The notes under the pieces were generated by a model. It did no database searches. It had not been told where the DNA came from and saw nothing but the letters and a program-made list of their open reading frames with translations. From positions 7,502,001 through 7,566,000 of the forward strand of contig NW_015622541.1 in assembly GCF_000835495.1 (NCBI RefSeq): 64,000 nt of DNA. Direction: 5' to 3'. The DNA is from Cladophialophora immunda. Taxonomy: Eukaryota > Ascomycota > Eurotiomycetes > Chaetothyriales > Herpotrichiellaceae. Position numbers and translations under genes: made by a program. Shown piece by piece: positions 26,133 through 60,460 of this stretch. Position 1 is the stretch's first letter. Every line of letters begins with the position of its first letter.

Positions 26133-28601
26133 ATGTCGACATCTCAAAATCCATCTTTTGAGAGTGCAAGGCCGAATTTGTATCTGGCAAAGCCAAGAAC
26201 CGACAAAGGACGACATATCTGCCGTCTGCTAGTCGCGAACCGTGGGGAAATAGCATGCAGAGTCGTGACGACTGCGCAGGCCCTCGGCATCGCCTGTATC
26301 GTCATCTACACAGAAGAAGATCGTGACAGTTTGCACGCAACTTCAGGCCACGAAGCGGTTTGCCTTGGACACATATCTCAAGGCCAGCAGAACCCATATC
26401 AGGACATAGATTTACTGGTCCAAACAGCGCTCGATGTCCGCGCCGACGCAGTTCACCCTGGTTACGGGTATCTCAGCGAAAACGCCGATTTTGCTCGAGC
26501 GATTGTGGCCGCCGGCTTGATCTTTGTTGGACCTTCACCCGAATCTATATCAGCATTGGGAGACAAGCGCGAAGCTAAGAGGTTCTTGATGATGCATGTA
26601 CCTGAGGTCCCTTTGATTCCAGGATACAATGGGTCGAGTCAAGATCAGGCTGTGTTGGCCGCCGAAGCGGACCGGATTGGATATCCTATTCTGATCAAAG
26701 CCGCCGGCGGCGGAGGAGGTCGTGGGATGAGGATTGTGCATCGCGCCGAGGCTCTCTACGAAGAACTCAATCGTGCCCAGTCAGAAGCTCTACGCTCCTT
26801 CGGCTCCTCGGATTGCCTCCTGGAGAAGTACATCGAGAATGGCAAACACATAGAAATTCAGATTGTGGGCGACGCGAGCGGTGACATCTTATCGTTATAT
26901 GAGCGTGAGTGTTCCATCCAAAGAAGACATCAGAAAGTGATTGAAGAGGCGCCTTCTCCGTGGCTTCCTGACACGGCCCGGACCAAGATGGTCGAAACGG
27001 CACGGATGATTGCAAAGTCAATGGCATATGAGAATGCTGGCACTGTCGAGTTCATGGTAGACGTCCGAACGGGCTCCTTCTACTTTCTGGAAGTCAACAC
27101 CAGGATTCAAGTCGAACATCCAATCACGGAAATGACCACACGAGTCGACATTGTGTCCCTACAGCTCTACGTGGCATCCGGCGGCCTTTGGGTGGAAGAT
27201 GATACCCTTAAGAACGGGATCAAATCAACAGTCGGTCATGCGATCGAGTGTCGCCTGTGTGCTGAAGATCCCGCGCAGGATTTCTTACCAGATTCGGGTC
27301 TCATACTTCGCTGGACTCCAGGAACAGAGTTTCTAGAGCACTCTGAGCGGCAAGGTGTACGATTTGAAACAGCACTCCAGACTGGTGCGAAAATCAGCGT
27401 CTTTTTCGATTCCATGATTGCAAAGATTGTGGTCTGGGCAGCCACACGTCAGGAAGCTTGTTCAACGATGCTCAGTGTTTTGAAACACACCGTGTGTATT
27501 GGAGTCAAGACCAATCAGTGCTTTCTACAGCAATGTCTGTTGCAGCCAGACTTTGCCAATGGGGTCTACACAACCCAGTTCATCTCCCAGTGTGGACAGG
27601 CGTTGCTGAATTTCGCGCCGTCGGAGGCTTTCTTCGGTCATGCGATGCGAACAAGCATTGTGCCTACGCTTCTCTTACGCCATGTGGCTCCCAAGCGAGA
27701 GTATCGGTCTTTCAGTAGCGTTCGGACAGGATTCCGCAATCAAACCCATGATCAGAGTAACAGAACTACAGACATTGTATCTGTCCAGAATATAGCAACC
27801 ACTTCCATCGATAGTCCAGAGTTGTTTTTCTGCATCAACTGGCTCCAAAGAGGCAGTTCAGCAGAAATCGACATGTACAACATTCACCCTTTCAACACTG
27901 CAACCAGCACATTAGAAGTAAAGAAAAGTCACCGAGACGGCGAAGGAAATAATGCCTCTCTCATCAGGCACTTTCACCAGATCTTTGCGAACATGCCTGC
28001 CTCCCAGGGCTCGGCGCCACCTCCAACTTGCGCGGCGCGTGTGATACGATCCTCGTATCATCAAGCAAGGGAGAATAACACCACCGGGTCATACACTCCC
28101 AGCAGGCTTGAGTGGGCAATTGCTGACTTTGTCGTTGAGAATGATAATAGAAGACATTCCTATTATGTTGCGACCAGCCCGTTGAGCAGGACACCATCCA
28201 ACGAGGAGCGTCCACGTCGTCTGTACTGCCACGTTCCTGCGCTAGGTACAAATATAATGCTCGAACAATACTCGAAGCTCTCGTTTGCAGAGTCCCGTCG
28301 GAAGTATTTTAGGGATGTGGATGCCGCGGATGTGCTACATTCTAATCCAGAGCGCACGTACAAAGCTCTCATGCCATGCAAAGTACTCAGAATTATGAAG
28401 GAAAATGGCGAGACAGTGAAGGCTGGCGATGTGCTTCTCATAGTCGAATCGATGAAGATGGAAATGAAGGTTTCTGCCATGGCAGATGGTCTGTTCCAGT
28501 GCACGCTAGGTACAGGCGATGCGGTTGAAGAAGAGTCTGTGTTATGCCAAGTTCTACAAGAACACGAACCAGATAAGCGTGAAAAGGTCGGTGAAGATTA
28601 G
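26133..28601 (+). CDS. Biotin-dependent acyl-CoA carboxylase, alpha subunit (methylcrotonyl/geranyl-CoA type)
   Basis: A single exon of 822 residues. Biotin carboxylase domain (about 28-480): LLVANRGEIACR, HPGYGYLSENADFA, the ATP-grasp glycine loop KAAGGGGGRGMR and the catalytic segment LEVNTRIQVEHPITE. The C-terminal biotinyl domain carries ESMKM, with the predicted biotinyl-lysine at residue 775. It would carboxylate its own biotin with ATP and bicarbonate for use by the beta subunit encoded at 31368. About 820 residues is longer than most methylcrotonyl-CoA carboxylase alpha chains; the extra part is a poorly conserved stretch before the biotinyl domain. Absence of introns contrasts with the eight-exon beta gene. 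Whether it acts on methylcrotonyl-, geranyl- or another 3-methyl-2-enoyl-CoA cannot be read here. No PTS1 (it ends KVGED), and no obvious mitochondrial presequence. Confidence 0.92.
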   Translation: MSTSQNPSFESARPNLYLAKPRTDKGRHICRLLVANRGEIACRVVTTAQALGIACIVIYTEEDRDSLHATSGHEAVCLGHISQGQQNPYQDIDLLVQTALDVRADAVHPGYGYLSENADFARAIVAAGLIFVGPSPESISALGDKREAKRFLMMHVPEVPLIPGYNGSSQDQAVLAAEADRIGYPILIKAAGGGGGRGMRIVHRAEALYEELNRAQSEALRSFGSSDCLLEKYIENGKHIEIQIVGDASGDILSLYERECSIQRRHQKVIEEAPSPWLPDTARTKMVETARMIAKSMAYENAGTVEFMVDVRTGSFYFLEVNTRIQVEHPITEMTTRVDIVSLQLYVASGGLWVEDDTLKNGIKSTVGHAIECRLCAEDPAQDFLPDSGLILRWTPGTEFLEHSERQGVRFETALQTGAKISVFFDSMIAKIVVWAATRQEACSTMLSVLKHTVCIGVKTNQCFLQQCLLQPDFANGVYTTQFISQCGQALLNFAPSEAFFGHAMRTSIVPTLLLRHVAPKREYRSFSSVRTGFRNQTHDQSNRTTDIVSVQNIATTSIDSPELFFCINWLQRGSSAEIDMYNIHPFNTATSTLEVKKSHRDGEGNNASLIRHFHQIFANMPASQGSAPPPTCAARVIRSSYHQARENNTTGSYTPSRLEWAIADFVVENDNRRHSYYVATSPLSRTPSNEERPRRLYCHVPALGTNIMLEQYSKLSFAESRRKYFRDVDAADVLHSNPERTYKALMPCKVLRIMKENGETVKAGDVLLIVESMKMEMKVSAMADGLFQCTLGTGDAVEEESVLCQVLQEHEPDKREKVGED

Positions 28602-28878
28602 GGGAAAGGCGCACACTGCTCCCGGTGTGACGTCTCAGGTCAATCACACACTACTGCCTAGCATATATATATTTGAAGAAGTGAAGATCATCCAAACAAG
28701 TTCCTCCTTTTCACTAAAAAATGTATATCCTCGTCCAATTTCTGAAACGGGAACGGAGAGTGATAGAAACAGTAATATACCAAGACCGAGGTAGTAGAAA
28801 GCCTTGGAGTTGGTTTTCCAACTCGGTTGAGGTGTTACGCGACTTGTAGCTAGATTGGTGAAGGGGTGACACTTGCTT

Positions 28879-31007
28879 TCACAATTTTCCAAGCCTTTTC
28901 TCCCTGATCAACCGAGCATTTCCAAATTTGCGCAACTCAGCCTTCTTAATCTTCCCACTAGCAGTAGTAGGGAACTGGTCAAGCCCTTTGTGACTGCCAG
29001 CATTGCCAGACAAGGAATTGTTCTCAGTTTCCCCAATCCAAAAGAATGTGGTGGGTGTTTTATGCCTTCCAAGTGTCTGGCGGACCCATGTGGAGAGATC
29101 TTCGTCGGTTGGGCGTTTGGTAGAGGATCGCTGTTCGACAAAAGCTGCCACGATTTCTTGATATCTGTGGTCCTCCAGGCCCACAACGCTGCTCTGGGCA
29201 ATCGCAGGATGCTCACTCAGACGCTCTTCAATTTCTGTCGGGTAGATGTTCTCGCCGCCTGGGGAAAGAGGACGCCCAAATGATCAGCCTTATAGCTCCG
29301 ATAGCCCCTCAAGGACAGTGTTGACTCGTAGAACGAGCAAGACTCTGTGCTGTGAGCAAACTGAGAGGATAAATACGCACCTCTAATAATGATATCCTTC
29401 AGCCGGCCAGTGATTCTACAATACCCTTGCTTGTCCAAGGTTGCTTCGTCACCAGTATGCAACCATGTCAGTCCATTTCCATCAGTGATGAGGGTTTCGC
29501 TTGTCTTTTCTGTGTTGCGAAAGTATCCCTTCATGATGCTATAGCCCGCAATGCAAAGCTCACCACGTGTACCTCGCGGCAATATATCTCCACCAGGCCC
29601 AATGACCTTGGCAGATGTATGGGGACAGATAGTGCCTACTGTCCCCAGTTTATGCGGTGAGCGATCCTCTGGAGAGGTCATGAATACCGCTCCGGTGGTC
29701 TCTGTCAGGCCTGCTCGGGGTCAGAACACAGGCGCATGGCAGCTATTCACTTGCTGTAGCAAGACGCACGAACCATATACGATAGTCAAGTCGGGCATGT
29801 CGAAGATTTGTTTGAAATCTTGCATCAAAGAGCTGGGCACAGGGGCTCCGGAGCTGATTCCCGTCCGCACCTTTGCGGATACGAGATCCCTCTTCCTGGC
29901 CTCTTCGAGAACTGCCACGAACATCGTAGGCACCCCATTAAACCCAGTGCAATTTTCGTCCACGATCGCCTTCAGAGTGGCTTGCGGGTCAAAGACATCG
30001 TTTGGGAACACAAGACATGAGCCACAATTTATGCTGGTCATGAGGCATAAGAAGATTCCAAAGCCATGGAAAAGAGGAGGTGGACTGCAGAGGATGTCAT
30101 TTTCAGTTATCCGCATACGGTGACCTATTATGCGACCGTTGTTGACCAATGCACTATATTCAGACGGAGATATCAATCGGGTGTTCTAGTCTTTCCACTC
30201 CTGCCATGGAGCTGTTAAACTTACATGTGAGTCAACATTGCGGCCTTGGGAGCGCCTGTCGTACCGCTTGTAAATTGAAGATTGCAGACTGTATCCGGCT
30301 GGAGTGACTCTGTCAGCTTGGTGATTCTAGCGGCTGACACACTATAGCCTCTGTCAATGACGGTCTGATAGTCCAAGAACAAGCGCGGAGCAGGGTTCTC
30401 TCCTCTGATGATTACTATCTTCTGCAACTTTGGCAGCGAAGGAGCTCCCGTCTCTAGAGCTTGTTGAATGTGCTGTAGAAGCGGGCGCATATTTTGTCGC
30501 CCTATTTGAGCCACCGTAAACAGGATCTTGCAGCCTATCGCACATCAGCTATGCGCGTGCTGCTACAGAAGCGGCCGTGCGAATGCAGAGCAGAGGCAAG
30601 GGATGCTCACCAGTATGCCGAAGAGCATGTTCGCACTCGACCACAGTATATGCGGGATTTAAAACCAAGACTGTCGCGCCAATGCGGCAGATAGCAAAAA
30701 AGAGCTCAACATATCTGGCACAATTCCCCGAAGAAATACCAACTCGGTCATCAGGTTGGATCCCCAGTGACAGAAGCCCTCTGGCAAGCGCCTTTGACCC
30801 TTCATTGAGCTGGTTATAGGTCAGTCTCTCTCCAGTCCATGGCACGACAATAGCCTCGCGGCTTGGATGTCTTCGTGCCTGATCCTCTAGGAGCTGGCCA
30901 ATTGAACACTGTGCCAAAGCCGGTTCCGTTGAACCCTTTAGTAGTGATATATTGTGGTCGTCGAATCTCGGTTCAGTCGTATAATCTGAGTTGGTAGGAA
31001 TCCCCAT
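28879..31007 (-). CDS. Acyl-CoA ligase 1 (AMP-forming)
   Basis: Five exons (31007-30611, 30534-30225, 30153-29774, 29710-29381, 29258-28879) close in frame to 598 residues. Family motifs: the P-loop-like LQFTSGTTGAPKAAMLTH, TIVYGLTETTG after splicing, the hinge region [35 protein letters not shown], and the catalytic-lysine region PTTASGKIKKAEL. It would activate a carboxylic acid to its CoA thioester via an acyl-adenylate. It resembles medium-chain fatty acyl-CoA synthetases more than 4-coumarate ligases. The C-terminus RLGKL ends in GKL, a weak PTS1-like tripeptide. Near the end there is an insertion-like stretch (ETENNSLSGNAGSHKG) not typical of the family. It is divergent from the carboxylase beta gene across 360 bp and probably co-regulated with it. 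Confidence 0.9.
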
Positions 31008-31367: not shown

Positions 31368-33517
31368 ATGGCGGCTTCTGCAGTAAACCCAAATGTTGAT
31401 TCATTCCCTCAGATAACGACAAGGATAAATAAACGGTCAAAGGAATTCGCAGAAAACGTCAAGCTATGGAAGCCGGTCAGGGAGAAATATCAAAATGCCC
31501 TCAGGTTGAGTGCATCTGAGGGTAGCGAGTCAAGCATTTTGAAGCACACCGAGCGAGGACAATTGCGAGGTACGAATTCCATATCGCAAGTCAAGACGCA
31601 AACTGTGGTGTTAACGTTGGTCTTATGTGAAAGCTCGCGAACGCGTGGCGCTTCTTCTAGACGAGGACTCACCCTTTCTAGAGCTTCAACCATTCGCGGG
31701 CTATGAGAATCCATGTTCCTCTCCAGCTGCAAGCCTAATAACGGGCATCGGCCTGATCAAGTACGAAGATGTGGTTAATCGAACAACACTTCAGGACAAT
31801 GTGGAAATAACAATTACAGTGACGTTCCCACAATGATAATAGCACATATTCCTTCTCTGAAAGGTGGCGCGTGGAACTACTTCACTGGTGAGCATAGTCT
31901 TTCCCTTTACTTCGCCCTTCTCACAAGTCCACAGTGCAAAAGCAGAATCGCGCGACAAATGTTGCGACTAAGAATGGTCTTCCCATTGTTGCACTCGTCC
32001 ACTCGGTAGGTTGACAAGAGTAATGCTCCAGCAGTTTGGCATACGCTGAGCCTCCCTTCCTCCATATTTAGGCCGGTATCTATCTACCACTTCAGTTTCA
32101 CGTTTTCCCATATGGCGGAAAGCTATTTCGAGATCTTTCAGTCCGGACCAGACAAGGCCACCAGTCTTGCGCTGTCGTTTTTGGCGGCTCAACAGCCGGC
32201 GGGGCCTATCATCCCGCGCTGTCGGATCACACCATATTTGTGAAAGGCCAGGCTAATGTCTTCCTCGGTGGCCCGCCGTTGGTCAAAATGGCCATAGGGG
32301 AAACCGTAGATGCGGAGGATCTTGGGGGCGCCGAAATGCATGCCACTGTCACGGGTTTAGCTGATCAGCTGGCTGTCGATGAGTATGAGCCATTCACCAT
32401 GTCCCTCGATGTTGGGTGATAGCTAGATGCTGACAACCAACACCATGTTGGTGTAGATTCGATGCCATTCGAAAGGCAAGACAATGGGTCCTAACAACAA
32501 CAGCAGCAAGACTCGTCGGGCGGTACAGTAGGCCTGAAGTGCCTCCTCGGCTGCCACTCTATGATCCGGAGGAATTGTATGGAATCGTGAACCCCGATAT
32601 CCGTCAGCCACTGGACATGATGGAGGTGATTCTACGGATTGTCGACGATGCAAGGCTGGAATCTTTCAAACCTTTATGGGGCAAAGCGATGATAACAACA
32701 TGGGCTTACGTTTTTGGTACGTTTGAACCCCCCCCCCCCCCGGGGGGGGGGGGGGGGAGTGGCCATCCAAGGCCTCTCGACTGTACGGCAAAGTTCATGC
32801 CTCCACTATTGAGCTAATATTGTAATAATACTCGGTTCTAGGCCATCTGACAGGAATTATCGCTAATCAGCGACCGATAATCAGTCCGGACGAGTCGGAC
32901 AAGTCTACGCAATTCGTCCATATCTGCAACCAAATGTAAGAGGGGGCGAAAATTCTTACTTCTCAAGCGTTTGAGGACTAATTCGAAAGCGCTGCTACAG
33001 GAAGGTTCCGATTGTCTTTCTCCACAATGTGACTGGGTTCATGGTCGGCTTGAAAGCTGAGCGAGCTGGCTTGATCAAGAAAGGCGCCAAGTTTGTGAGC
33101 GCCATCAGTACCAGCCTTGTCCCTCACATTAGCATCCTTATTGGTGCATCATACGGGGCAGGGAACTACGCCATGTGCGGGCGGGCCTTCAAACCACGGT
33201 TCTTGTTCGCATGGCCGACCAGTCGCTGCTCAGCCATGGGGCCAGAACAACTGTCTGGGGTCATGGATAGCATCACACGAACCTCTGCAGAGCGATCGGC
33301 TCGACCGGTAGACGAAGCTCGGCTGTCAGCGCAAGCAGAAGCCCTAAAGGCCCGAGTTGAACGTGATTCGACAGCATACAGATACTCGTCGTACCTCCAC
33401 GACGACGGTATTATCGATCCTCGAGACACAAGAGACGTTCTGGGAATATGCTTGGAAGTCGTTAAGAATACCCAAATCAAGACTAACCCAGGGTCGAGGA
33501 ATCTGGCAAGGATCTAG
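31368..33517 (+). CDS. Acyl-CoA carboxylase, beta (carboxyltransferase) subunit
   Basis: Eight exons (31368-31569, 31634-31760, 31820-31887, 31935-32005, 32072-32382, 32457-32716, 32842-32935, 33001-33517) close in frame to 549 residues. The start is the ATG before AASAVNPN. Crotonase-fold carboxyltransferase motifs are intact: RERVALLLDEDSPFLEL, VPTMIIAHIPSLKGGAWN, SAGIYLPLQF, FGGSTAGGAYHPALSDHTIFV, VFLGGPPLVKMAIGE, DLGGAEMHATVTGLADQLA and IGASYGAGNYAMCGRAF. It transfers CO2 from biotin to the acyl-CoA, as in methylcrotonyl- or geranyl-CoA carboxylase. Length fits the family (about 540). It ends LARI, a weak PTS1-like tripeptide. Intron 6 contains an extreme C14-G16 palindrome. Partner of the alpha subunit at 26133. 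Confidence 0.92.
32728..32757. repeat. C14-G16 homopolymer palindrome inside an intron
   Basis: Fourteen C followed directly by sixteen G, about 11 bases after the GTACG donor of beta-subunit intron 6. On either strand it can fold as a near-loopless G:C hairpin, and the G-run can also form a quadruplex. It may be real or an assembly/sequencing artefact. Coding sequence on both sides is intact. Confidence 0.75.
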
Positions 33518-33984: not shown

Positions 33985-35939
33985 ATGATGAAAACTCCAG
34001 CCGTACGCATTGTCGAAGTTGGTCCACGAGATGGTCTACAAGCCATCGAAGAGATTGTTCCGACTGAAATCAAAATCGAGCTCATTGAAAGACTCTCCAA
34101 GACTGGCCTGTGATATATAGAAGCCACTTCATTCGCACCGTGGCGATGGATTCCACAACTAGCGGATCACAGAGCGGTCATGCAAACCATCAAAGAGATT
34201 CAAAATACCGCTGGTGCCTCGATCACATACTCCGTCTTAGTTCCTAACGTCAAAGGATTTCTCGCCGCTGCCGAGGCAGGTGCGCGGGAAGTAGGAGTCT
34301 TCGTCTCAGCTACCGAGAGCTTCAGCCGCAATAACAGCAATTGCAGCGTCAAGGAGGGTTTGGAACGTGCCAGGGAGATTGCAAACAGGGCTAGGAGTCG
34401 AGGAATACACGTGCGAGCGTAAGTCATACTCTTTGCAGAATGAACCAGAGCGACAAGATGGTGCTTAGAGATGCGCGAGAGATTTGGTTTGACTTACATG
34501 AATCGGGCGCCAGGTACGTCTCTTGCGCCTTTTCCTGCCCATTTGATGGCCCAACAGATCCGCAGGATGTGTTGACGGTGGCACAAGGCCTGCTCAACAT
34601 GGGATGCTACGAGGTCAGTCTCGGCGACACTACCGGGGCTGGTACTCCAGCTCATGTTCGGCGTCTGCTCGACGTTCTTCTGAGATCCATTCCTGCCCAT
34701 CGACTAGCAGGCCATTTCCATGATACCTACGGCCAAGCAGTTGCCAATGCGGTCACAGCCTATGAACTCGGCCTGCGCACGTTTGATAGTAGCGTGGGCG
34801 GTCTTGGAGGGTGTCCCTACAGTCCAGGGGCGAAGGGCAATCTAGCCACCGAGGACCTCGTCTATACCTTCCAAGGTATGGGGATATCAACCGGCGTGGA
34901 CCTTTACAAACTGGCAGAGATCGGTCACTGGATAAACGAAAAGCTAGGGAAGCCAGATGGCAGCCGAGCGGGTGCAGCTATCCATTCGAAAAGTGACACC
35001 GTACCAGCCAAAAGTACCCACAAGTGTCAACCTACGACATGGACCATGGTCGAACAAGATCCAGAGTACCAGCTGCTTCGGCACGCATCAACAGTCAAAA
35101 TAGTGCTAAATCGACCCCACAATGGCAACGCTTTGACCCGGACAATGCTCACACACTTGACAACGCTCTTCGAGACGCTGTCGAATGACCCCTCGGTGTT
35201 TCATATTGTTCTCACAGGTAAGGGCAAATACTTTTGCACGGGAATGGATCTCAGCAGCGGTGGTGCCACCGCCGCCGGAGCGGATGTGGTCTCGAAACAG
35301 GACCAGTTCGAAGGTCTGTACAAACTCTTCGAGGCTATAGACAGAACTCCTCAGACGACCATCGCATTAATCAACGGACCAACGTTTGGTGGCGGAACCG
35401 GACTCGCCTTTGTATGCGACATCCGCCTGGCCCAGGCCAATGCAACATTCACCATGACTGAGGTCAAGCTAGGGCTTTGCCCTGCCACCATCTCCAAGTT
35501 TGTCGTTCGCGAGTGGGGCCTGGCTATTGCTCGCGAGGCTATGTTGACAAGTCGACCGGTCACCGCACAAGAACTCCATCGTTTTGGCGCAGTACATGCC
35601 ATAGCCTCTTCACTTTCGTTACCGTCCTCCGCGGCCACGGATGGATCGCACCGAAACCTTGACCAATTGTTGCAACAATATCTCGATAAATACCTCAACC
35701 ATGCTGCCCCGCAGGCATCAGCACGAACCAAGGAGTTGGTTGCCGCTGCGTGGCGTTATGCAGGTGATGAGCGTCAAGCCAAGGTCATAAAAGACGTCTT
35801 CGAGTGGATGATTGCTCCTAGCGAAGAAGCTCAGATCGGCACAGACGCATTTAGGGCGGGGAAAAATGGGGTAGATTGGTACGAGGTGTACCAAAACCGC
35901 AAACTAACAGGGTGTCAGAGCCTGAAACCGAAGTTGTAG
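33985..35939 (+). CDS. HMG-CoA lyase / enoyl-CoA hydratase fusion, with an in-frame TGA
   Basis: Exons 33985-34418 and 34514-35939 give 620 codons in one frame. The first 330 residues are a lyase of the HMG-CoA lyase family: VGPRDGLQ near the start, metal-binding HFHDTYGQA and the cysteine loop [14 protein letters not shown]. The rest is a crotonase-fold hydratase: [32 protein letters not shown] and [17 protein letters not shown], the last typical of methylglutaconyl- or isohexenylglutaconyl-CoA hydratases. One of the two usual crotonase glutamates appears replaced (GGTG). Together these catalyse the hydration and acetoacetate- or acetyl-releasing cleavage that follow carboxylation. Codon 43 is TGA (34111-34113), in a stretch reading SKTGL-stop-YIEATSF where homologues have a sense codon. 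The C-terminus KPKL is PTS1-like. If the TGA is not bypassed, only a shorter protein from ATG 34180 would form, lacking the VGPRDGLQ segment. Confidence 0.85.
34111..34113 (+). other. Premature TGA in the lyase domain
   Basis: An in-frame stop inside otherwise conserved coding sequence. The gene continues in the same frame on both sides. A CGA-to-TGA transition would explain it, since arginine is common at this place. Readthrough, RNA editing, mutation and sequence error are all possible. Confidence 0.8.
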
Positions 35940-45234: not shown

Positions 45235-45550
45235 GTGGAATGAGGTTGCAATACCAGTCAGGAGAATTTGACAATGCACAATTCTTTGTATGTAAGACGA
45301 GACTACAAGAGATGAACCTGCCACCGTCTTTCTAAGCTGATAGCAAGAGTACTACTGGAGAGTTTTTGATCCCATTTCCCGTCTGGAACGACTGGTTCCC
45401 CCAGCACTCTGCCATTGGCCTTGCCGGCTGAGGACTCGCAATTCTTTTTAATGACCCCGAATCTTTTCCCTTGCTCCGTGATTCTCTCAAGTCGCTCGCG
45501 TGCTAGAAGTCGGACGTCAGCGGTATGCTCAACCACGCATAGAGTTTGAC
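45235..45550. other. Convergent 3' flanks
   Basis: About 315 bp between ligase 2 (plus) and the aldehyde dehydrogenase (minus). Presumably both terminators; no gene seen. Confidence 0.4.
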
Positions 45551-48598: not shown

Positions 48599-50770
48599 AT
48601 GCAGGAGGATCAACTGTCACGGCTAGCATGCGATCGTTGCTATCGGCGGAAGGCACGGTGTGACAAGGTTCTGCCTTCGTGCTCCACGTGCATACATGCT
48701 GGGACCGCATGCTGTTACAACGCGCGAGGGGGCTTGGGCCGTGGCGACATCCCAGAGACCATAGGGCGTCGTCTACGGCAGCTGGAGAACAAAAATCGCC
48801 TCTTGTCAAAGCAGCTTCGCGAAGCCCAAAATGCAGCAAGAGCCGCTGGCGGGTCCGCCTCAGGTGAAGACTTGGACACGGCTGCCGAGATGATGGAGAT
48901 ACCGGACGACAGCCACGACGGAGCAGATAAAAGCGAGACGGAAAACGACAACGAGGTCGCTAAAGAAGTCTACTCCCTCTCCCTCCACGCTGGCAGGCCT
49001 AGGCAGTACCTGGGCTCGGCCAGTGGCGCCATTCTGGCCAACCTCTTCCCTCTTGGTAGCCGGCCGAAACGCATCGGTGGCGACAGCAACAACAACGACG
49101 ACGAAGACGAAGACTATTTTCGCCGATTTGCTACGGCCGATGGACAGAGATACAGCAGTCCTGAGATGGCCAAAACCGTCTTGCCAGCAGAACCACTTGG
49201 ACGGAGTCTTCTGGCTGCGTACCTGTCGCATGATCACTTGGCCTTCCCGTATCTCCACCCCAAGAAGCTGATCAACACCCTGACTTCGATGTACGCGGAA
49301 GAAAAGTATTATGAGTCTCACCCGGTGGAGGCATTTTCCTTGGACATGATCTTCGCCATTGCGACCGTCCAAGTCCACAGATTCTCCTGGCAGTCGCTCC
49401 CCGATGCAGAGACGTACCATGAGCGGGCAATCTCGAAATTGGGCATCGTTCTCGAGTCCGGAGGTTTGGTTGCTTTACAGACCATCATGCTCCTATGTCA
49501 ATACCGGATGTTGAGCGTATCTTACAGCACTTCAGCAAGCTTGTGGCACTTGTTGGGCATGGCAACAAGACTGGGCATTGAGCTAGGTCTCCACCGAGAG
49601 GCTATCTACCGCGTCCCCGTCGGTCTATCACCCACTAATGAGGACCACGTCAAGCAGGAACTCGGCATCAAGCGCCGTTGCTTTTGGTCTCTTTTCCAGA
49701 TGGACAGAATCGTCAGCAACACCTTGGGTCGTCCTGTGTCGATCAATCTTCTCGAGATCGATACAGAACATCCAGCAGTCGAGGACGACGGGGACGCTTC
49801 CTGGGGTCCGTCGCCATCCGTAGAAGACATGTTGCAGTATCCCCACTGGCCAGCGAATACCAAAATCTTCAATCACATCACCTGGCATCGCATTATCACC
49901 GGCAAAATTCTCTCCAACCTGCACAACGTGCCCAAGAGTCGGATGCCGGACCCCCAGACCTGCCTTGCTATCAAGCAGCAGCTTGCCGAAGAATTGGATC
50001 AATGGAGAGCCGGCGTCGCCTCATTGCCTCTGATAGATGTCTCTGCGACGAGAAGCAAGGACAAGTCGAACTACAGAACGCGGGAGTGGTATAATCTACT
50101 GTATCATAACTGCATCCTGATGTTGCACCGCCCCATCCATTCCTTACAGGACATCCCGCAAACATCAGAGGTTCTGACCCAGATTTATTACTCATCCCAA
50201 CAATCCATCTCCTCATATGCAGAGCTCCACAAAGCTCGCAAGATTAACTATGCCTGGGTCACATTGCATGCCGTCTTCCTCGTGGGACTCTCATACGTGT
50301 ACGCGCTCAGGACTCATTTCCGGAACAGGCGACATCAGATGGAGGGGCCGATGGACGGGATGCCCCCACCTCCCCAAGCCCTATTGACCCCGGAACCGAG
50401 CATCAGTCAAATTGTGAGTGACATGAGAGCGTGTTCGACGGTCTTGGTTGCCATCTCGGAACGGTGGAATACGGGCAGAGGTTGTCACGAAATCTTTGCA
50501 AGACTTTCAGACGCCGTGCTGGCCGATGCCTCCGAATACTTTATGGGCACGAAGGTGCAGAGCATGTCCTCATCAAACCAGGAAGGAGGACCCAACAGAC
50601 ATCTTCTGTCTGGCGATCAGGTCTCTCAGCAGCCTCCATGGCCCATCCTCAGCAGTGACTTCGACCACAGCTATCAAGACTATTTTGGAGGGTTTCCGGA
50701 GCTATTTGGTGACCATTTCGATGACAACATCTTACTCCAACCGCCGTTTGGCTGGAACTTCGAGTCATAG
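48599..50770 (+). CDS. Zn2Cys6 transcription factor 2
   Basis: A single exon of 723 residues from the ATG before QEDQLSRLACDRC. The zinc cluster is at residues 10-40: ACDRCYRRKARCDK then CSTCIHAGTACCY. A coiled-coil-like helix follows (RRLRQLENKNRLLSKQLREAQ), as used for dimerisation. The middle homology region includes LGMATRLGIELGLHRE and KRRCFWSLFQMDRIVSNTLGRPVSI. A nuclear regulator. Its place between the aldehyde dehydrogenase and the AtuA gene makes it a candidate regulator for the right half of the cluster. It is a different subfamily from regulator 1 (fungal-specific domain more like the CAT8/XlnR-type). Confidence 0.93.
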   Translation: MQEDQLSRLACDRCYRRKARCDKVLPSCSTCIHAGTACCYNARGGLGRGDIPETIGRRLRQLENKNRLLSKQLREAQNAARAAGGSASGEDLDTAAEMMEIPDDSHDGADKSETENDNEVAKEVYSLSLHAGRPRQYLGSASGAILANLFPLGSRPKRIGGDSNNNDDEDEDYFRRFATADGQRYSSPEMAKTVLPAEPLGRSLLAAYLSHDHLAFPYLHPKKLINTLTSMYAEEKYYESHPVEAFSLDMIFAIATVQVHRFSWQSLPDAETYHERAISKLGIVLESGGLVALQTIMLLCQYRMLSVSYSTSASLWHLLGMATRLGIELGLHREAIYRVPVGLSPTNEDHVKQELGIKRRCFWSLFQMDRIVSNTLGRPVSINLLEIDTEHPAVEDDGDASWGPSPSVEDMLQYPHWPANTKIFNHITWHRIITGKILSNLHNVPKSRMPDPQTCLAIKQQLAEELDQWRAGVASLPLIDVSATRSKDKSNYRTREWYNLLYHNCILMLHRPIHSLQDIPQTSEVLTQIYYSSQQSISSYAELHKARKINYAWVTLHAVFLVGLSYVYALRTHFRNRRHQMEGPMDGMPPPPQALLTPEPSISQIVSDMRACSTVLVAISERWNTGRGCHEIFARLSDAVLADASEYFMGTKVQSMSSSNQEGGPNRHLLSGDQVSQQPPWPILSSDFDHSYQDYFGGFPELFGDHFDDNILLQPPFGWNFES

Positions 50771-51158
50771 TCAATAATATACGCATGAGACCCAGAAGGT
50801 GTTTCGTACATAGCGGCTTCGAAACAAACGCACGAAATTGAGGGAATAGGGATGACGTGCAAGGCTCTCTCTGTCTGTATTTCACCACGATGAAGATCCT
50901 TATTGTTCAAGTTTCGGGGCTGTGTCTCAATTGCAACTTTTGCTAGCTTATGAAATGCGGCCTCGTTCGAGAAACTTCAGAGGCACATCAACCAAGCGGC
51001 TCCGCAAGAATTCGCCAATGCCTTTACCCAGCCCATCAATACGTTCCGAAGAGGCGATCCCTCCAGAAAGATTATCTAGTATTCGACTGTAAAGACGTAT
51101 GTGCATTAGTAGGGAAGGAGTAGGTCATTCCAAGTGACCTGGGGAGGTTCGGAGAGAC
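50771..51158. other. Convergent 3' flanks
   Basis: About 390 bp between regulator 2 (plus) and the AtuA-family gene (minus). No gene; presumably terminators. Confidence 0.4.
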
Positions 51159-52856
51159 TTACAAGTGCACGGCCTTAATGCCGACAAATTCCACGCGTTC
51201 GACACGTCGAGACGTGTCGCCATCGTACCAGTCATCCCCGAGGAGGAGTTTGAGCCTCTCCACGGTCAGGAAGGCCTGGAGCCATTCATATTCATCGTCG
51301 TACTGGGAGCGAGAAAAGAAGCCGATGTTCGAATTGTCGGCTTTATCGCCTGACCTGGCGTGCACGATGGATCCCAACGGCACCTTTCTCGTCCGCCCGA
51401 AGCTCGTCAAGTCCACGGGGCTCGCCGTCTCGTAGGATGGGCGGATCCGTGGATATTCAGCCGTGTGCTGCGGAGGAGGGATGTCGATCAGTCTACCGGA
51501 GTCTTCCAGCTCAACTTGGACTTTGATGGCGTCCTGTGAGATGAGAGCTGGAAAGATCTCCATGAACGGCTTTGGATCCATTGTACGGAAATCTAGGTTC
51601 ATGTGGTATCCCGGGTACGCCTGCATTCGGAGTGCGTAGATGGGAATCTTGAATTTGGCGGCACTGATGTCCTCTAGTCGTCGAGCTTGCGCAAATATCC
51701 GGAAGAAGACTGTCCCGGCCTGTTGGCTGACAGGGTCTTCCGGTGATGTCCCGTATAGTTCGATACTGAGCTTACTGAATTTGTGGTCTTTGAAGATATG
51801 GTCGAGCTGACGTCTCATCATTTTCACTTTGTCTCCGATGTCGAGTCCGTTGAGGTAGAATGTCGCCTCGGCTTGGTAGCCTCCTGGGGCAGTGAACATG
51901 ACCTTCGTCGTTGGCGGAGGTGGTAGGCCCTTGACACCAGATATGCGAATGCGGTCTCCCGTGCTGGGCTCCGCTTCGACTTTGATTTGCGATAGGTCGG
52001 CAACCACATCTGGGTTCAGATAGAGGTGGCCCTGGAGCTCATAGAGGATCTGGGCACGAACGGTGTCTTCCGTTACGCGACCGCCACCGACGGATAGAGT
52101 CGTCACAACACACTCCCCTTTACTGTTGATCTCGGCGATCGGAAACGTCAGGTCCACCAAATCGTCAAGGATCTCCTTGAATCCGGTGAAGTTGGCACCC
52201 GTCACGTACGGCCCGCACTCGGTCAGATGCCCTGCGACCAAGGCGCCTGCTAGGGCGTTATAGTCGTCCTCGGACCACTGAAAGCGCCAGGCCGCAGCGC
52301 CCATGAGTGGCGAAGCGTCCGTGCATCGACCGCAGATAACGATCTGCGCTCCTGAGTGCAGGGCTTCCACGATCCCTCGGCACCCGATGTATGCCGCGCC
52401 GCAGACAGGCTTGAGCTCCCAGTCGTCCAGCTGCTTCTCCTCGTGGTCGAGGTGCTTGAAATCATTGCGGCGCTGGCCCAACTGGCTAATGACGTCAGGT
52501 ACATCATCACCTAGCACGGCCGCAACGGGGACGTCATATCCTCTTGACTTGCAGAGCCTGCCAACCTCGCGAGCGAGCGACCGGGTGTTGAGCGCACCAG
52601 CGTTTGTGATCACTTTGAGCCCCTGCGCGACGATGTCGTCGAGACACTCTTCCAGCTGGTCTAGGAACCCCTTCTCGTAGCCCAGCTCAGGGTTCTGCTG
52701 TTTCACGATGGCGTTCCAAGCAATGTTCATCTCCGACAGCCAATCCCCAATTATCACGTCGACGTTACCGTGTTGGACCATGCGGGCCATTGCATGCGGG
52801 TTGTCACCCGTCGTGGACGAGACGCTGCCGATGCGAAGGGTCGGTTTCGAGATCAT
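51159..52856 (-). CDS. AtuA-family protein (acyclic terpene utilisation, PF07287)
   Basis: A single exon of 565 residues. The N-terminal two thirds match the AtuA family pattern: LRIGSVSSTTGDNPHAMARMV, VDVIIGDWLSEMN, VITNAGALNTRSLAREV, GAQIVICGRCTDASPLMGAAAW and ECGPYVTGANFTGF. The last 100 residues form the small second domain often attached to it (VPLGSIVHARSGDKADNSNIGFF through VGIKAVHL). AtuA is the first gene of the Pseudomonas atu operon for citronellol/geraniol breakdown. Its biochemical role is not established, and a role on the acyl-CoA side of the pathway is assumed. Here it is divergent from an SDR gene and near the carboxylase, hydratase-lyase and dehydrogenase genes, mirroring the bacterial gene content. 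No targeting signal is obvious. Confidence 0.9.
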   Translation of the reverse strand: MISKPTLRIGSVSSTTGDNPHAMARMVQHGNVDVIIGDWLSEMNIAWNAIVKQQNPELGYEKGFLDQLEECLDDIVAQGLKVITNAGALNTRSLAREVGRLCKSRGYDVPVAAVLGDDVPDVISQLGQRRNDFKHLDHEEKQLDDWELKPVCGAAYIGCRGIVEALHSGAQIVICGRCTDASPLMGAAAWRFQWSEDDYNALAGALVAGHLTECGPYVTGANFTGFKEILDDLVDLTFPIAEINSKGECVVTTLSVGGGRVTEDTVRAQILYELQGHLYLNPDVVADLSQIKVEAEPSTGDRIRISGVKGLPPPPTTKVMFTAPGGYQAEATFYLNGLDIGDKVKMMRRQLDHIFKDHKFSKLSIELYGTSPEDPVSQQAGTVFFRIFAQARRLEDISAAKFKIPIYALRMQAYPGYHMNLDFRTMDPKPFMEIFPALISQDAIKVQVELEDSGRLIDIPPPQHTAEYPRIRPSYETASPVDLTSFGRTRKVPLGSIVHARSGDKADNSNIGFFSRSQYDDEYEWLQAFLTVERLKLLLGDDWYDGDTSRRVERVEFVGIKAVHL

Positions 52857-53891: not shown

Positions 53892-54740
53892 ATGAGCGTC
53901 GATGGGAAAGTCTTTGCGGTTACGGGCGCAGGCTCCGGGATGGGAGCGGCCATTGTTCGCCTCCTGGCTCGACGCGGTGCGCGCGCAGTGGCCGCCAGCG
54001 ACATCTCGGCGAAGGGCCTGGAGGCCATCAAAGATTCTATCTCTCAGCTCAATCCAGGATCTGAGATTCGGACGACCGTCTTGGACGTGACGTCGTCGTC
54101 GGCCGTCGAGGACTGGATCCAGGACGCTGTTGCGGCCTTCGGAGATCTGCATGGCGCTGTCAACTCAGCAGGCTTGCCGCAAACCATTGGGGTCAGACAG
54201 TCCCCGACCATTCTGGAAGAGACCGATGAGTCGTGGAAGCGGGTCTGGGGGGTCAATCTCGACGGGGTCTTCTATTGCACACGTGCCCAGATTCGGGCCA
54301 TGAAGGCGCTGGGAACGCCCAATAGCGATCGTGCGATCGTGAATATTGCCAGCATGGCTTCGTTGAAACACGATCCGGACGTCTACGCGTACCGGTCTTC
54401 CAAAGCTGCCAACGCACATTTCACGCAGAGTGTGGCCAAGGACGTCTCCAAGTTTGGGATCCGAGTCAACGCCGTGTCTCCAGGTATGTTATGTAGCTTT
54501 GACCTTCCGTCCGCCTTGTGAAAGTGTCCTAACGCTCTTTGTTACGATACAGGGTCGACCGCCACTCCCATGTTGAGAGAGTTCACGGGCGGGAAAGACG
54601 CACAATTGGAGGATTGGAAAAGCCGAGGGTGGGAGATCATCGAGCCTGACGACGTCGCCCGCGTGGTTGTTTGGCTCCTTAGCGAGGACTCGAGATCAGT
54701 GTTTGGAGCCAACCTCAATATTGGGGCAGCGCCGCCATAG
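53892..54740 (+). CDS. Short-chain dehydrogenase/reductase (SDR)
   Basis: Two exons (53892-54483 and 54553-54740) close in frame to 259 residues. Classical SDR: cofactor loop TGAGSGMG, an acidic residue after the second strand (ASDIS) favouring NAD(H), LDVTS, VNSAGLP (the NNAG equivalent), the catalytic serine in NIASMAS and the YRSSK active site (YxxxK), then RVNAVSPG. It would interconvert an alcohol and a ketone, or reduce or oxidise a 3-hydroxyacyl compound. In bacterial atu operons SDRs (AtuB and AtuG) occur beside AtuA. In this cluster oxidation of an alcohol to the ketone substrate of the Baeyer-Villiger enzyme is also plausible. The C-terminus AAPP has no targeting signal. Confidence 0.92.
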
Positions 54741-55516: not shown

Positions 55517-56479
55517 ATGCCTCTCGCGCTGGATCCTGAGTTCGCCAAAGTGCTGGAGCCCTTGCTCCCAGCGATGGCCAATGCGCCAAAATTGGCTGTA
55601 GGAGATGTCGCAGGGAGGCGTCAGGCATTGGACGCCTTCTTCGGTCCGGTGTTTGGTGCATATCTTGACCCAGAAGATGTCGCGGAGGAGAAATACAATG
55701 TCAAATCCAGCGACGGCTTCGAAGTCCCGGTCTACCGCTTCACGAAGAAGGGCACGCCGACCACCGGCTCGGACCCTGCTGTCTATTACCTGCACGGTGG
55801 AGGCTACATCGCCCTGGACGTGCCATTGTACCGCAAAAAGATCAAGGACCTCGTCTCACGCTCCGGAGTCCAGATATTTGCTCCCGATTACAGATATGCA
55901 CCGGAGTCACCCTACCCGATCCCAATTGAAGATGCCTGGGCCGGGCTGCAGGATCTGAGCCTGAACGCAAAGAAGTATGGCATAGACCCTTCTCGGATCG
56001 CGATCATGGGCGACAGTGGTGGCGGCGGTCTTGCTGCGGGCCTTGGGCTGAAGGCGAGAGACGAAGCTTTAACCCCACCACTAGCGAAGCAGATCCTGGT
56101 CTATCCCATGGTAGAAGACAGAAACATCAAACCAATCAAGGCGCTCGAGCCGTTTGCGACATGGACGATCGATGACAACGCCACAGGCTGGCAAGCATAT
56201 CTGAGCGGCAAGGCGGGTACATCAGATGTTCCATATTACGCTGCGGCAGCACGAGTACCATCGGTCGAAGGCCTACCGCCAACTTACATTGATGTGGGAG
56301 ATCTGGACATCTTCCGCGACGAAGACATCGAATATGCACGCCGCCTCGCAGCCGCCAATATCCATACCGAACTCCATGTATACCCAGGCGTGCCACACGG
56401 ATTCGATCTGATTGCCTCCAACATCTCCGTCACCACCTACGCCATGGCCAACCGAATCAAAGCTATGAAGTCAATTTGA
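55517..56479 (+). CDS. Alpha/beta hydrolase, HSL-type esterase/lactonase
   Basis: A single exon of 320 residues from the ATG before PLALDPEFAKVL. The frame is open to 55400 but the extra part is not family-like. Hormone-sensitive-lipase signatures: oxyanion loop LHGGGYIALD, nucleophile elbow MGDSGGGGLAAG with the catalytic serine, the acid in DVGDLDIFRDED and the histidine in GVPHGFD. It cleaves carboxylic esters. Fungal and bacterial Baeyer-Villiger monooxygenases are commonly paired with such a hydrolase that opens the lactone or ester product, and one is encoded 2.3 kb to the right. It has no signal peptide, so an intracellular enzyme is likely. Confidence 0.93.
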   Translation: MPLALDPEFAKVLEPLLPAMANAPKLAVGDVAGRRQALDAFFGPVFGAYLDPEDVAEEKYNVKSSDGFEVPVYRFTKKGTPTTGSDPAVYYLHGGGYIALDVPLYRKKIKDLVSRSGVQIFAPDYRYAPESPYPIPIEDAWAGLQDLSLNAKKYGIDPSRIAIMGDSGGGGLAAGLGLKARDEALTPPLAKQILVYPMVEDRNIKPIKALEPFATWTIDDNATGWQAYLSGKAGTSDVPYYAAAARVPSVEGLPPTYIDVGDLDIFRDEDIEYARRLAAANIHTELHVYPGVPHGFDLIASNISVTTYAMANRIKAMKSI

Positions 56480-56781
56480 TGGAATCTGGTACAGATGAAT
56501 GAGATGAACATCGGCGGACACGTAGAATTATGTACGCAGGACAAACTGAATGACCTATTCTCCTGAGCCACCCACGAAACAGCACTCTACAGAATAATTC
56601 CACCTACGCGGACCACTTTGGAAGTTTCGAGAGTTTCGCTGTTGGCGTTTGAAATGCAACGTCTACTGCTCGCCAGACGAAGTTGTAGGTTGTATAGAGC
56701 GACGGAACTGTGAATTGCTGTCTCATGGCATCTAAATCGCACGGACCTGTGCTCCGTGTCCCGGATCGATTTCTTCCAGGG
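56480..56781. other. Convergent 3' flanks
   Basis: About 300 bp between the hydrolase (plus) and the cyclase-family gene (minus). No gene seen. Confidence 0.4.
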
Positions 56782-57914
56782 CTATAAAATCGCGATTACA
56801 TTGGGCGGCGTGCCGACTCCGCCATATACGTGAAGGGGGGCACTTGTTAGGAAGAAGGACCACTGACCCCTTTCCCCACAGACCTCTGCCAACCTCTCCA
56901 GATCCCAAAGCTCACCGATCGGGGTTCCCCAATGCACTAGAAGCCATTCGTGAAGACGCACGGCACCAGGCTCCATGAACGGTATGGGAGTGACCTCGAA
57001 ACCTAGTGTATCGGTTGCCACTGCGGCGAAATGGTGGTTCCAGAGCCACCTGACACTCTTTTCCGTCGCCTCAAGACCAATAAATGCACCTCTTGCTGAA
57101 GCTTCCTCCTGCTCCTTTTTAGCTGCCTGCAGATGCCAGACTGTGAACCCTGTGCGAAGGATGAGGATGTCTCCGTCGTGCAACTGTGTGTTTTGGTGCT
57201 TGATCACTGCTTCCAGCTCTTCTGTAGTGATTATGGTGTTCGAAGGGATGGTGACCGGGGCTTGCCCCGTCTGTTGGCGCCATCCATGGTAGTCCAGTAG
57301 GACGCCTCGGCCAACTATGCCACCGCGCTGTACCCATTCTACAAGAACGGGGGAAAAAAGAGTATTGTGTTATCATTTATTGGCGGCCTTTGTGCTCCCA
57401 TCGAAATGCGGCAGAGAGAGACTTACTCTGAATGCCCAGCCTTCCATCTTCACGCTTCTCGTCGATGTCTCGGTGCTTGACTCCGCCATAGTAGATGCCA
57501 GACTCTTGCAGTCCGATATGCCGGAGACCGTCCCACTGAGAGCTACTCTGGGTATTCATGGTCAATACATCGTCATGGGCGACAATTTCCAAATCGGTGC
57601 CTTTGAGTCGCTCCTTGAAGTCGATAATCTGGTGGCTAAACCCTTGTCTCCCGGCTCCAAGGTGGTCGAAATGATTCAATGGAAGATCCAACTGTATTGT
57701 GACGCCTGCCTTGATCTCTTTGGTTGCCTGCAAGATAATTTCAGGAGTCAAGTAATTGAGAGCTACGTTTCTTGTCAGTATATACCAGTGAGGATACTTT
57801 CACGACTTTAGACTCACTTCCTAATTCGTCGTTCTCTCCCCAAAGAGCCCAAGCATTTCCTTGAGGCTGGCCAGCGGTTTTTGGCACGGAGTCGAAAGAC
57901 GGATAAGTTGGCAT
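56782..57914 (-). CDS. Cyclase-family hydrolase (PF04199)
   Basis: Three exons (57914-57818, 57762-57427, 57338-56782) close in frame to 329 residues. The joins ENDELGTLNYLTPE and GIQKWVQRGGIVGRGVLLD are typical of the family. Visible metal-site elements: VTIQLDLPLNHF, IVAHDDVLTMNTQSSSQWDGLRH and the long C-terminal half with GDILILRTGF and HEWLLVHWGTPIGELWDLERL. Relatives include kynurenine formamidase-type and isatin hydrolases, metal-dependent enzymes that open amide or C-C/ring bonds. Many fungal members have the same N-terminus. Next to a Baeyer-Villiger enzyme and an esterase it could act on a ring ketone or a lactone (inference). An alternative start at 57983 would add 23 residues. Confidence 0.88.
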
Positions 57915-58741: not shown

Positions 58742-60460
58742 CTAGCTCAGGTTGAACCCTTCGTAGCCAGCTGCGGTACAAGCTTTCAAAAGCTCCTCGT
58801 AATGGCCCAGCCCGCCCATATAGTTGAGGGCTTCACGAGGCTTTCCTGGCACGTTGTCGCCCATATACCAGGTGGTCGCCTTGACCATGAGGGTCTCAGC
58901 TGTGACATCGTTATTGATCTTTCTCCATTTCTCCTCGGCCGCGCGGGTCGGTTCAATCTTGGTGTAGTGATGCCGCTTCATCTCCTCCAGAAGACCGACA
59001 ATCCAGTCGCCCTGGACTTCTGAAATGCGAGGCCCGATGGCGAACCCAGTCGGCGCCTGGGGCCCGTACATGAAAATCATATTGGGGAACCCAGTGGTCG
59101 CTACTCCCAAGTGGGTGTATGTGGCTCCTGCCCACTTATCAACCAACTTCTGGCCACCAACGCCCGTGATGTCAATCTTGAGGAGGCTGCCTGTGACCGC
59201 ATCGAAGCCCGTGGCGAGGACCAGAAGGTCAACCTCAACCTCTTGGCCGCCGGTGAGCTTGACACCCTTGGGTGTGATCTCGGCGATTGGGTTCTTCTTG
59301 ATGTTGTATAGGTCAATGTTCTTCTGCTGGAAGGTCTCATAATAGTGTGTTTCCAGGGAGGGTCGCTTCGTTCCCCACGGATTTTCTGGCTCTAATGGCG
59401 CCAGATTTTCGATCAATTCTGGATCTAGGCCTGCAAGACGCGCGCGGGTCTTATCCACCCAGAAGTCGTACATTGCTCGGTTCACCACGGGATTCTTCAA
59501 GATGTCTTTGTAGTTGTGGAGCCAGAGGGTGAAACCTCCGACCTTCCATTGTGACTCCCAGTATGCAATGCGCTCCTCTGGCGTGTCGTCTTCAGAAGTC
59601 TTAGTCAAGAATTCATAGTCGAAGCCACCAAATGTGTTTCGAATATGCTTGAACAGAGCTGGGTAATCTTTCTTTGCATCGATTTGTTTTTGGACCGTCT
59701 TCTCATCGTAGAACTCCTGGACCATGGGTAGAGCAAGATTGGCCGTGCGCTGGAAGATTGTGAGATGCTCGACAACCGGCGCAATCTCTTGAATAACTTG
59801 GACACCGCTTGCTCCGGTACCGATGATCCCGACCTTCTTCCCCTTCACCTCGACTCCCTCTTTAGGCCACAGGGCAGTATGATATGCCTGACCCTTGAAG
59901 CTCTCCAGTCCTTTGATGTTGGGGATGAATGTTTTGGCGGCGAAGCCAGTAGCCAGCAGAAAAAATGGTGCCTTGGCTACATACCCTTTGTCCGTAACAG
60001 CTGTCCAGGTGTTAGAGCTCTCGTCAAAATCGGCCTTGACAACCGCATTGTCGAAGAGAATATCCTTTGAGAGATCCCACTTCTCGTTAACGTGCTCAAA
60101 GTACCTGACTATTTCGTCGCGGCAGGGGAAGCGCTCCTTCCATGTCCAGTCTTCCCATAGTTCCGGTGCGTTGAACTCGTAAAACGGCCAGTGAGTGTCG
60201 ACACGAGCCCCAGGGTACGAGTTCCACCACCAAATTCCACCGAACCATTTTCCGGCTTCCAGAACCTTTACCTTATATCCCAGTTTGCGTAGCGAATGTA
60301 GGAGATAGATGCCACCAAAACCCGCGCCGACAATGATGGCGTCAAATTCCTCTGGCTTTGAGTTCCCATTCACCGTCACAGCTCCATTGACTGACATTTT
60401 GAGACCGAGGTCGCACGAGGACTGGGGAGTCTCGAACAAAATCTGAGTATTGCTGTCCAA
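58742..60460 (-). CDS. Baeyer-Villiger monooxygenase (cyclohexanone-monooxygenase-like)
   Basis: A single exon of 572 residues, or 551 from the second ATG at 60397 (MSVNGAVTVNG). Type I BVMO: FAD Rossmann motif IIVGAGFGGIYLLHSLR, NADPH Rossmann motif VGIIGTGASGVQVIQEIAP, and between them the family fingerprint FKGQAYHTALWP (FxGxxxHxxxW). ATG motif LLATGFAAKTF and the second LVLATGFDAVTGS are also present. It inserts an oxygen next to a ketone, making an ester or lactone, with NADPH and O2. The esterase, cyclase and SDR beside it suggest a ring-opening module. Cytosolic by lack of signals. The substrate cannot be read from the sequence. Confidence 0.94.
   Translation of the reverse strand: MDSNTQILFETPQSSCDLGLKMSVNGAVTVNGNSKPEEFDAIIVGAGFGGIYLLHSLRKLGYKVKVLEAGKWFGGIWWWNSYPGARVDTHWPFYEFNAPELWEDWTWKERFPCRDEIVRYFEHVNEKWDLSKDILFDNAVVKADFDESSNTWTAVTDKGYVAKAPFFLLATGFAAKTFIPNIKGLESFKGQAYHTALWPKEGVEVKGKKVGIIGTGASGVQVIQEIAPVVEHLTIFQRTANLALPMVQEFYDEKTVQKQIDAKKDYPALFKHIRNTFGGFDYEFLTKTSEDDTPEERIAYWESQWKVGGFTLWLHNYKDILKNPVVNRAMYDFWVDKTRARLAGLDPELIENLAPLEPENPWGTKRPSLETHYYETFQQKNIDLYNIKKNPIAEITPKGVKLTGGQEVEVDLLVLATGFDAVTGSLLKIDITGVGGQKLVDKWAGATYTHLGVATTGFPNMIFMYGPQAPTGFAIGPRISEVQGDWIVGLLEEMKRHHYTKIEPTRAAEEKWRKINNDVTAETLMVKATTWYMGDNVPGKPREALNYMGGLGHYEELLKACTAAGYEGFNLS

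Follow-up and report, generated by a model that had tools for sequence, protein, structure and literature searches.

Does a fungal gene cluster built around a biotin-dependent carboxylase serve leucine catabolism, or does it break down other 3-methyl-branched acids, as the acyclic terpene utilization (Atu) genes of Pseudomonas do? The question is raised by a stretch of 64 kb in the assembly of Cladophialophora immunda (C1:7502001-7566000; 42.2 Mb in 39 contigs), hereafter called the window. Pfam searches of its open reading frames, by which the gene families were assigned, revealed two blocks of genes. Block A (26-38 kb) encodes the alpha and beta subunits of the carboxylase, an acyl-CoA ligase, an acyl-CoA dehydrogenase (ACAD), and a hydratase-lyase fusion. 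Block B (43-60 kb) includes an AtuA-family protein and a Baeyer-Villiger monooxygenase (BVMO). The features described below support the assignment of the beta subunit to a geranyl-CoA carboxylase (GCC)-like type rather than to 3-methylcrotonyl-CoA carboxylase (MCC). Block A probably encodes a peroxisomal Atu-type pathway, whose substrate size, step order, and compartment are inferred.

Substrate pocket of the carboxylase beta subunit

The beta model, joined from eight GT-AG exons, matches a deposited C. immunda protein (P0001) at 100% identity. MCC beta subunits have a phenylalanine in the pocket and three inserted residues before it, while GCC has a glycine and no insert (Jurado et al. 2015, PMC4673880). 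According to the same source, the phenylalanine of MCC blocks geranyl-CoA, exchanging the pocket residue shifts the substrate preference, and GCC carboxylates methylcrotonyl-CoA as well (PMC4673880). In the alignments, the window beta lacks the three-residue insert, and its Gly171 stands under Phe191 of human MCC. The window reads VFP---YGGKLF against VFPDREHFGRIF, with Gly171 below the phenylalanine. An alternative alignment places the gap one step later and still leaves the window protein without phenylalanine. The PDB listing has phenylalanine at position 191 of the human chain, matching the numbering in PMC4673880. Over this stretch, 138 residues align with 138 of the Pseudomonas GCC (5ikl_B); with MCC chains, the ratio is 139 to 142 or 138 to 141. 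Gly172, directly after the pocket glycine, is the same in all 17 sequences aligned.

The insert is missing in all 119 readable sequences among the best 120 beta matches (four of these rows, unmatched but readable, were counted by eye), and the named members are all fungi. Glycine occupies the pocket position in 110 of them, alanine in eight, and threonine in one; phenylalanine does not occur. Bacterial relatives were taken from 81 loci, namely the best 80 of at least 593 bacterial matches plus Nocardia, i.e., a best-scoring and not a random sample. Those with the insert (n = 51) carry phenylalanine in 50 cases and glycine in one, and those without it (n = 30) carry glycine (24), tyrosine (4), or alanine (2). 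Within C. immunda itself, the insert and Phe191 of MCC are absent from the window beta and present in a paralogue on C4.

Bacterial relatives of the beta subunit

A tree was computed without the pocket columns and with 34 of the 81 bacterial sequences. Fourteen fungal betas form one clade (support 100) amid insert-less bacterial carboxylases and apart from MCC. The insert-less bacterial neighbors belong to Bacteroidota, Myxococcota, Actinomycetota, and Acidobacteriota. One branch of modest support (78) has all 36 insert-less sequences of the tree on the same side. The GCC sequence sits on a long branch (1.49), and its exact position is unsure. Descent of the fungal betas from a Pseudomonas-type GCC was considered and rejected, an exclusive clade of fungal proteins and GCC having a p-value of 0.00085 in the approximately unbiased test. 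The fungal enzyme thus resembles a gamma-carboxylase with a large pocket but is not an orthologue of AtuC.

Gene neighborhoods in bacteria were also compared. An AtuA homologue lies near beta in 9 of the 30 insert-less loci and in 2 of the 51 insert-bearing ones (Fisher p 0.0016), at mean locus lengths of 14.3 kb and 12.9 kb, respectively. The AtuA queries were the window protein and one from the Mycolicibacter locus L059 itself. This association supports the view, already held in the original prediction, that AtuA and the insert-less carboxylase serve one chemistry. The order in L059 is beta-alpha-AtuA-ACAD, with a short-chain dehydrogenase (SDR) further on. At L042:8604-10637 (Flavobacteriales), a 678-aa protein X lies between beta and alpha in the order SDR-beta-X-alpha-ECH-AtuA (ECH, enoyl-CoA hydratase).

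Putative peroxisomal targeting signals

The import motif of peroxisomal targeting signals of type 1 (PTS1) was refined experimentally in Histoplasma to [ASPHC][KR][LI], and PKL, AKI, and HKL drive peroxisomal import there (PMC13343957). The window proteins end in ARI (beta), PKL (fusion), SRL (ACAD), and AKM (ligase 2). The first three fit the motif as it stands, and ligase 2 fits it when M is also allowed at the last position. Among the best 120 beta matches, 82 fit [ASPHC][KR][LI] and 116 do so with M permitted. The same C-terminal motif is found in none of the 81 bacterial relatives and in none of 120 BVMO matches, which served as a control.

The best 120 matches of the hydratase-lyase fusion differ in their N-termini. 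PTS1-type ends occur in 33 of 39 with a short N-terminus, in 11 of 32 with an N-terminal extension of more than 25 residues, and in 37 of 49 without the lyase motif that was searched. Among these matches, C. immunda has one extended form, a presequence-bearing lyase-hydratase fusion on C7 (P0305), which is presumably mitochondrial; presequences were judged by eye. The simplest reading of these ends is a probably peroxisomal route that would run parallel to mitochondrial leucine catabolism.

A second copy of block A and other carboxylases

A second complete block-A cluster lies at C5:3298547-3313533 (L038, L018, L039), comprising alpha, ACAD, beta, a regulator-like stretch, ligase, and fusion. 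Identity to the window amounts to 39% for alpha, 42% for the ligase, and 56-71% for the ACAD. ACAD, both carboxylase subunits, hydratase, and lyase are thus clustered twice, and since the five block-A genes recur together, their grouping goes beyond chance. The C5 proteins end in SKL (ACAD), ARL (ligase), PKL (fusion), and ARI (beta), i.e., four of the five enzymes have a PTS1-type end. The original prediction had listed a second complete set in the genome as an outcome that would speak against it, and in formal terms the C5 block is such a set.

The canonical MCC beta is encoded on C4 (L017). It has the insert, the phenylalanine, and a presequence-like N-terminus, and it ends in FRM. Since the window beta is insert-less and a canonical MCC beta exists separately, leucine degradation is not the likely role of block A. 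The choice of Atu-like over leucine chemistry in the original prediction is borne out by the insert-less beta with its glycine and by the separate MCC beta.

Other carboxylase genes were encountered in the genome. At C8:20791-22293 (L021), one predicted protein of about 1128 aa fuses biotin carboxylase and biotin carboxyl carrier protein (BCCP) with a carboxyl transferase. Two more pairs of alpha and carboxyl transferase lie at C6:3379500-3389400 and C5:2094000-2103900 (L019, L020), and their transferases share no more than 22-25% identity with the beta of the window.

Proposed pathway of block A

In the proposed pathway, the ligase would convert a 3-methyl-branched acid to its acyl-CoA, from which the ACAD would form the alpha,beta-unsaturated compound. 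The gamma-methyl group would be carboxylated by the biotin-dependent carboxylase, whose pocket is open in the manner of GCC. The fusion protein would hydrate the product and then remove a C2 unit, and the resulting 3-oxoacyl chain could enter peroxisomal beta-oxidation. Since hydratase and lyase are fused, they may act in consecutive steps. The whole route would run beside, and apart from, the mitochondrial MCC for leucine. Acetoacetate had been predicted as the product of the lyase. This has to be corrected, as the lyase step of the geranyl route is described as eliminating acetate (PMC4097962).

Several observations weigh against this pathway. A single pocket residue would be no proof of geranyl-size substrates, and 4 of the 30 insert-less bacterial relatives have tyrosine instead of glycine at this place. 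A search of the PDB with the whole beta scores MCC chains above GCC. Since the fungal betas and the Pseudomonas GCC are not sister groups, orthology does not reveal the fungal substrate. At E 1e-15, none of the 30 insert-less bacterial loci yielded a lyase near beta, and no AtuA lies within 500 kb of the C5 copy; AtuA is therefore not needed wherever block A occurs. As for the compartment, alpha ends in GED without a PTS1 and would have to enter with beta, and the end of ligase 1, GKL, falls outside the motif as an atypical peroxisomal signal. Neither ARI nor ARM is among the tripeptides reported as functional in the available part of PMC13343957, and as signals both are less secure than SKL, AKL, or PKL. 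Moreover, many bacterial betas end in FRM, one residue away from the fungal end. Finally, an in-frame TGA (34111-34113) interrupts the lyase part of the window fusion gene in the present assembly.

Block B and its link to block A

The translation of the BVMO gene carries FKGQAYHTALWP, which fits FxGxxxHxxxWP, the type I BVMO fingerprint, and the FAD and NADP folds were found as well. The nearest solved structures, searched with a 94% identical Fonsecaea protein (P0121), are 6jdk (best), 5j7x, and 6y48, which are presumably aliphatic-ketone enzymes. At a cut-off of E 1e-80, at least 30 BVMO-like loci were counted in the genome. One such locus, at C3:6025558, is full of stop codons.

Parts of block B recur elsewhere in the genome. 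At 5.55 Mb on C3, an AtuA gene is accompanied by BVMOs and by a regulator that is 31% identical to that of the window; no carboxyl transferase match was obtained on C3. Neighbor counts were made on C1-C8, after weaker BVMO rows and other contigs had been dropped, and they include the window itself as well as one pair of AtuA genes with a BVMO in common. Out of 16 strong AtuA places, two have one of 39 BVMO-like genes within 10 kb (0.29 expected; permutation share 0.038) and four within 20 kb (0.56 expected; 0.0026). With all 24 AtuA places, the counts are again two within 10 kb (0.45 expected; 0.070) and four within 20 kb (0.85 expected; 0.0082). PF04199 genes lie within 10 kb of AtuA at 3 of the 16 places (0.22 expected; 0.002) and at 5 of the 24 (0.34 expected; 0 of 5000 permutations). 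AtuA hence adjoins PF04199 or BVMO genes more often than at random, most clearly PF04199, the excess of BVMO being weak at 10 kb. Block B is separable from block A and forms a second unit, parts of which recur.

The two blocks are close together in F. multimorphosa (nine locus tags) and apparently also on one further contig of 115,885 bases, so their linkage is older than the C. immunda strain. In F. pedrosoi, block A seems to be present and this BVMO missing, although the 90% identity clusters hide members. The linkage by locus tags rests on protein names among the best 120 matches, likewise in 90% identity clusters. The joining of A and B proposed at the outset was therefore half upheld: the blocks are neighbors in F. 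multimorphosa, and on the other side block A stands alone on C5 and the AtuA-regulator-BVMO trio on C3. Block B would probably convert a terpenoid-like ketone or alcohol to carboxylic acids, which in this lineage might be passed on to block A; both suggestions are weaker than the assignment of block A.

In the original prediction, both blocks worked as a single pathway dedicated to a cyclic terpenoid ketone, for example menthone. Ring opening to a lactone would fall to the BVMO, and a hydrolase would release a 3-methyl-branched hydroxy acid. The SDR and aldehyde dehydrogenase would then oxidize it, ligase 2 would activate it, and block A would remove the methyl branch. Ring opening of a p-menthane ketone by a BVMO would yield a 3-methyl-branched acid in need of an Atu-type route, and the scheme is therefore coherent. 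It is weakened by the nearest solved BVMOs, which are not of the camphor or cyclohexanone type, and such a single pathway is possible but doubtful.

Alternative explanations for block A

The window copy of block A might also be decaying and non-functional, with the C5 copy doing the work. The TGA within the lyase part of the fusion speaks for decay. On the other hand, beta is intact over eight exons, and the ACAD exons that were read are open. A deposited fusion protein of C. immunda (P0241) has no stop at the place of the TGA and is identical across the 474 aa compared, so an assembly error or the allele of one strain is as likely an explanation of the stop codon. Decay of the window copy is thus considered unlikely.

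Leucine or isovalerate remains to be weighed as the substrate. That the cluster is simply leucine catabolism was rejected in view of the canonical MCC beta on C4. A variant of this explanation regards block A as an accessory pathway with an MCC isozyme relocated to peroxisomes. It could draw on the higher rank of MCC chains over GCC in the PDB search with the whole beta, on the many public entries named methylcrotonoyl-CoA carboxylase, and on the activity of GCC toward methylcrotonyl-CoA, which makes a side role possible (PMC4673880). It conflicts with a pocket that lacks both insert and phenylalanine, and with a fungal clade that falls among insert-less bacterial carboxylases and apart from MCC. 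The canonical MCC beta and the presequence-bearing lyase-hydratase fusion also exist separately, and the accessory leucine pathway is the least probable of the alternatives.

Comparison with known systems

The enzyme classes of the window are those of the Pseudomonas atu/liu system (AtuCF, AtuE hydratase, LiuE lyase, AtuA, and AtuD). Both beta subunits lack the insert and have the glycine, and AtuA is present in both systems. In contrast to Pseudomonas, the window is eukaryotic, hydratase and lyase are fused, the proteins have PTS1-type ends, and a BVMO block lies alongside. Moreover, the window beta falls outside an exclusive clade with the Pseudomonas GCC, and the C5 copy has no AtuA nearby. 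The mitochondrial leucine pathway of fungi (mccA, mccB, and ivdA) shares the enzyme logic and also has a lyase-hydratase fusion, here the presequence-bearing P0305 on C7. Its MCC beta differs from that of block A in the insert, the phenylalanine, the FRM end, and the separate gene on C4. The Mycolicibacter (L059, beta-alpha-AtuA-ACAD) and Nocardia (L037, AtuA-ACAD-beta-alpha) loci have an insert-less beta like the window; neither a lyase nor a BVMO was found in them (E 1e-15).

Among fungi, a terpene-responsive gene cluster has been reported in Grosmannia clavigera (PMC3680317), where BVMOs are implicated in limonene detoxification (PMC8120277). The available parts of both papers do not mention a carboxylase for these limonene genes (PMC3680317, PMC8120277). 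A family survey from 2011, as far as its text is available, records GCC only in bacteria (PMC3199775). No description of a fungal geranyl-CoA carboxylase or of a peroxisomal biotin-dependent carboxylase was found in open PMC articles, searched by titles and the beginnings of abstracts and partly by top matches. The accessible parts of PMC4368105, PMC7188761, PMC10735191, and PMC7842363 held nothing decisive.

A wider proposal can be put forward tentatively. Ascomycetes might hold a peroxisomal Atu-type pathway for isoprenoid or other 3-methyl-branched acids, with a GCC-like carboxylase of bacterial ancestry and a fused hydratase-lyase, and some black yeasts might couple to it an AtuA-BVMO unit that opens terpenoid ketones. 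If this holds, a geranyl-CoA-type carboxylase would be on record from a eukaryote for the first time, and a biotin-dependent carboxylase would operate within peroxisomes. Fungi would have a second, probably peroxisomal pathway for branched acids beside leucine catabolism, and many ascomycete entries named "MCC beta" would be misnamed. Concrete, testable genes would also become available for the fungal breakdown of acyclic and cyclic terpenoids. Most surprising would be a GCC-type carboxylase module in a eukaryote, probably located in peroxisomes and accompanied by a paralogous copy.

Gene content of the window

The genes of both blocks and of the interval between them are listed in Table 1. 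Nearly all gene families named in the original prediction are present. A home-made gene finder served for most genes; it missed the ACAD, split beta, and fused the BVMO to upstream sequence. Beta, ACAD, ligase 1, and the ends of the fusion are frames read by hand. Neither beta nor AtuA received a decisive name from NCBIfam. In an intron of beta, at about 32728-32757, a poly-C tract runs straight into a poly-G tract, possibly an assembly artefact.

Table 1 Genes of blocks A and B and of the interval between them (window positions)
Block	Feature	Position	Strand	Basis
A	Biotin carboxylase alpha (biotin carboxylase + BCCP)	26133..28601	+	PF00289, PF02786, PF02785, PF00364; start codon read
A	Acyl-CoA ligase 1	about 28879..30960 (5' end approximate)	-	PF00501
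A	Carboxyl transferase beta	31368..33517	+	PF01039; 8 exons, 549 aa
A	HMG-CoA-lyase-like / enoyl-CoA hydratase fusion (HMGL-like + ECH)	33985..35939	+	PF00682 + PF00378
A	Acyl-CoA dehydrogenase (ACAD)	36673..38250	+	PF02770, PF00441; frames read
Between	Gene 1	38664-40016	-	GT25 match, sub-threshold
Between	Gene 2	40883-41938	+	no Pfam match
B	Acyl-CoA ligase 2	43411..45234	+	PF00501, PF13193
B	Aldehyde dehydrogenase	45490..47292	-	PF00171 on two open reading frames
B	Zn2Cys6 regulator	48518..50770	+	PF00172, PF04082; C6 motif scan
B	AtuA-family protein, C-terminal ferredoxin-like domain	50948..52856	-	PF07287 (550 bits), PF23544
B	Short-chain dehydrogenase (SDR)	53892..54740	+	PF00106
B	HSL-type alpha/beta hydrolase (Abhydrolase_3)	55517..56479	+	PF07859; LipP1-like, below cut-off
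B	PF04199 "cyclase" metal-dependent hydrolase, main exon	56782..57369	-	PF04199 (42 bits)
B	Baeyer-Villiger monooxygenase (BVMO)	58742..60397	-	FxGxxxHxxxWP fingerprint

Two Zn2Cys6 regulators had been predicted. A scan for the C6 motif in open frames of at least 30 aa across the 64 kb, which an intron-split cluster would escape, found one C6 cluster, in the regulator gene of block B. A second Fungal_trans match lies at 23486-24757, outside the interval 26133-60460 that holds the two blocks. The two genes between the blocks, which the original prediction did not mention, are probably not part of the pathway; both are presumably glycosyltransferase-like. Nor had that prediction noted the likely peroxisomal targeting, the C5 copy, or the stop codon in the fusion gene. 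At 4975-6660, the window contains a gene with a HeLo / DUF7580 domain of the fungal incompatibility type.

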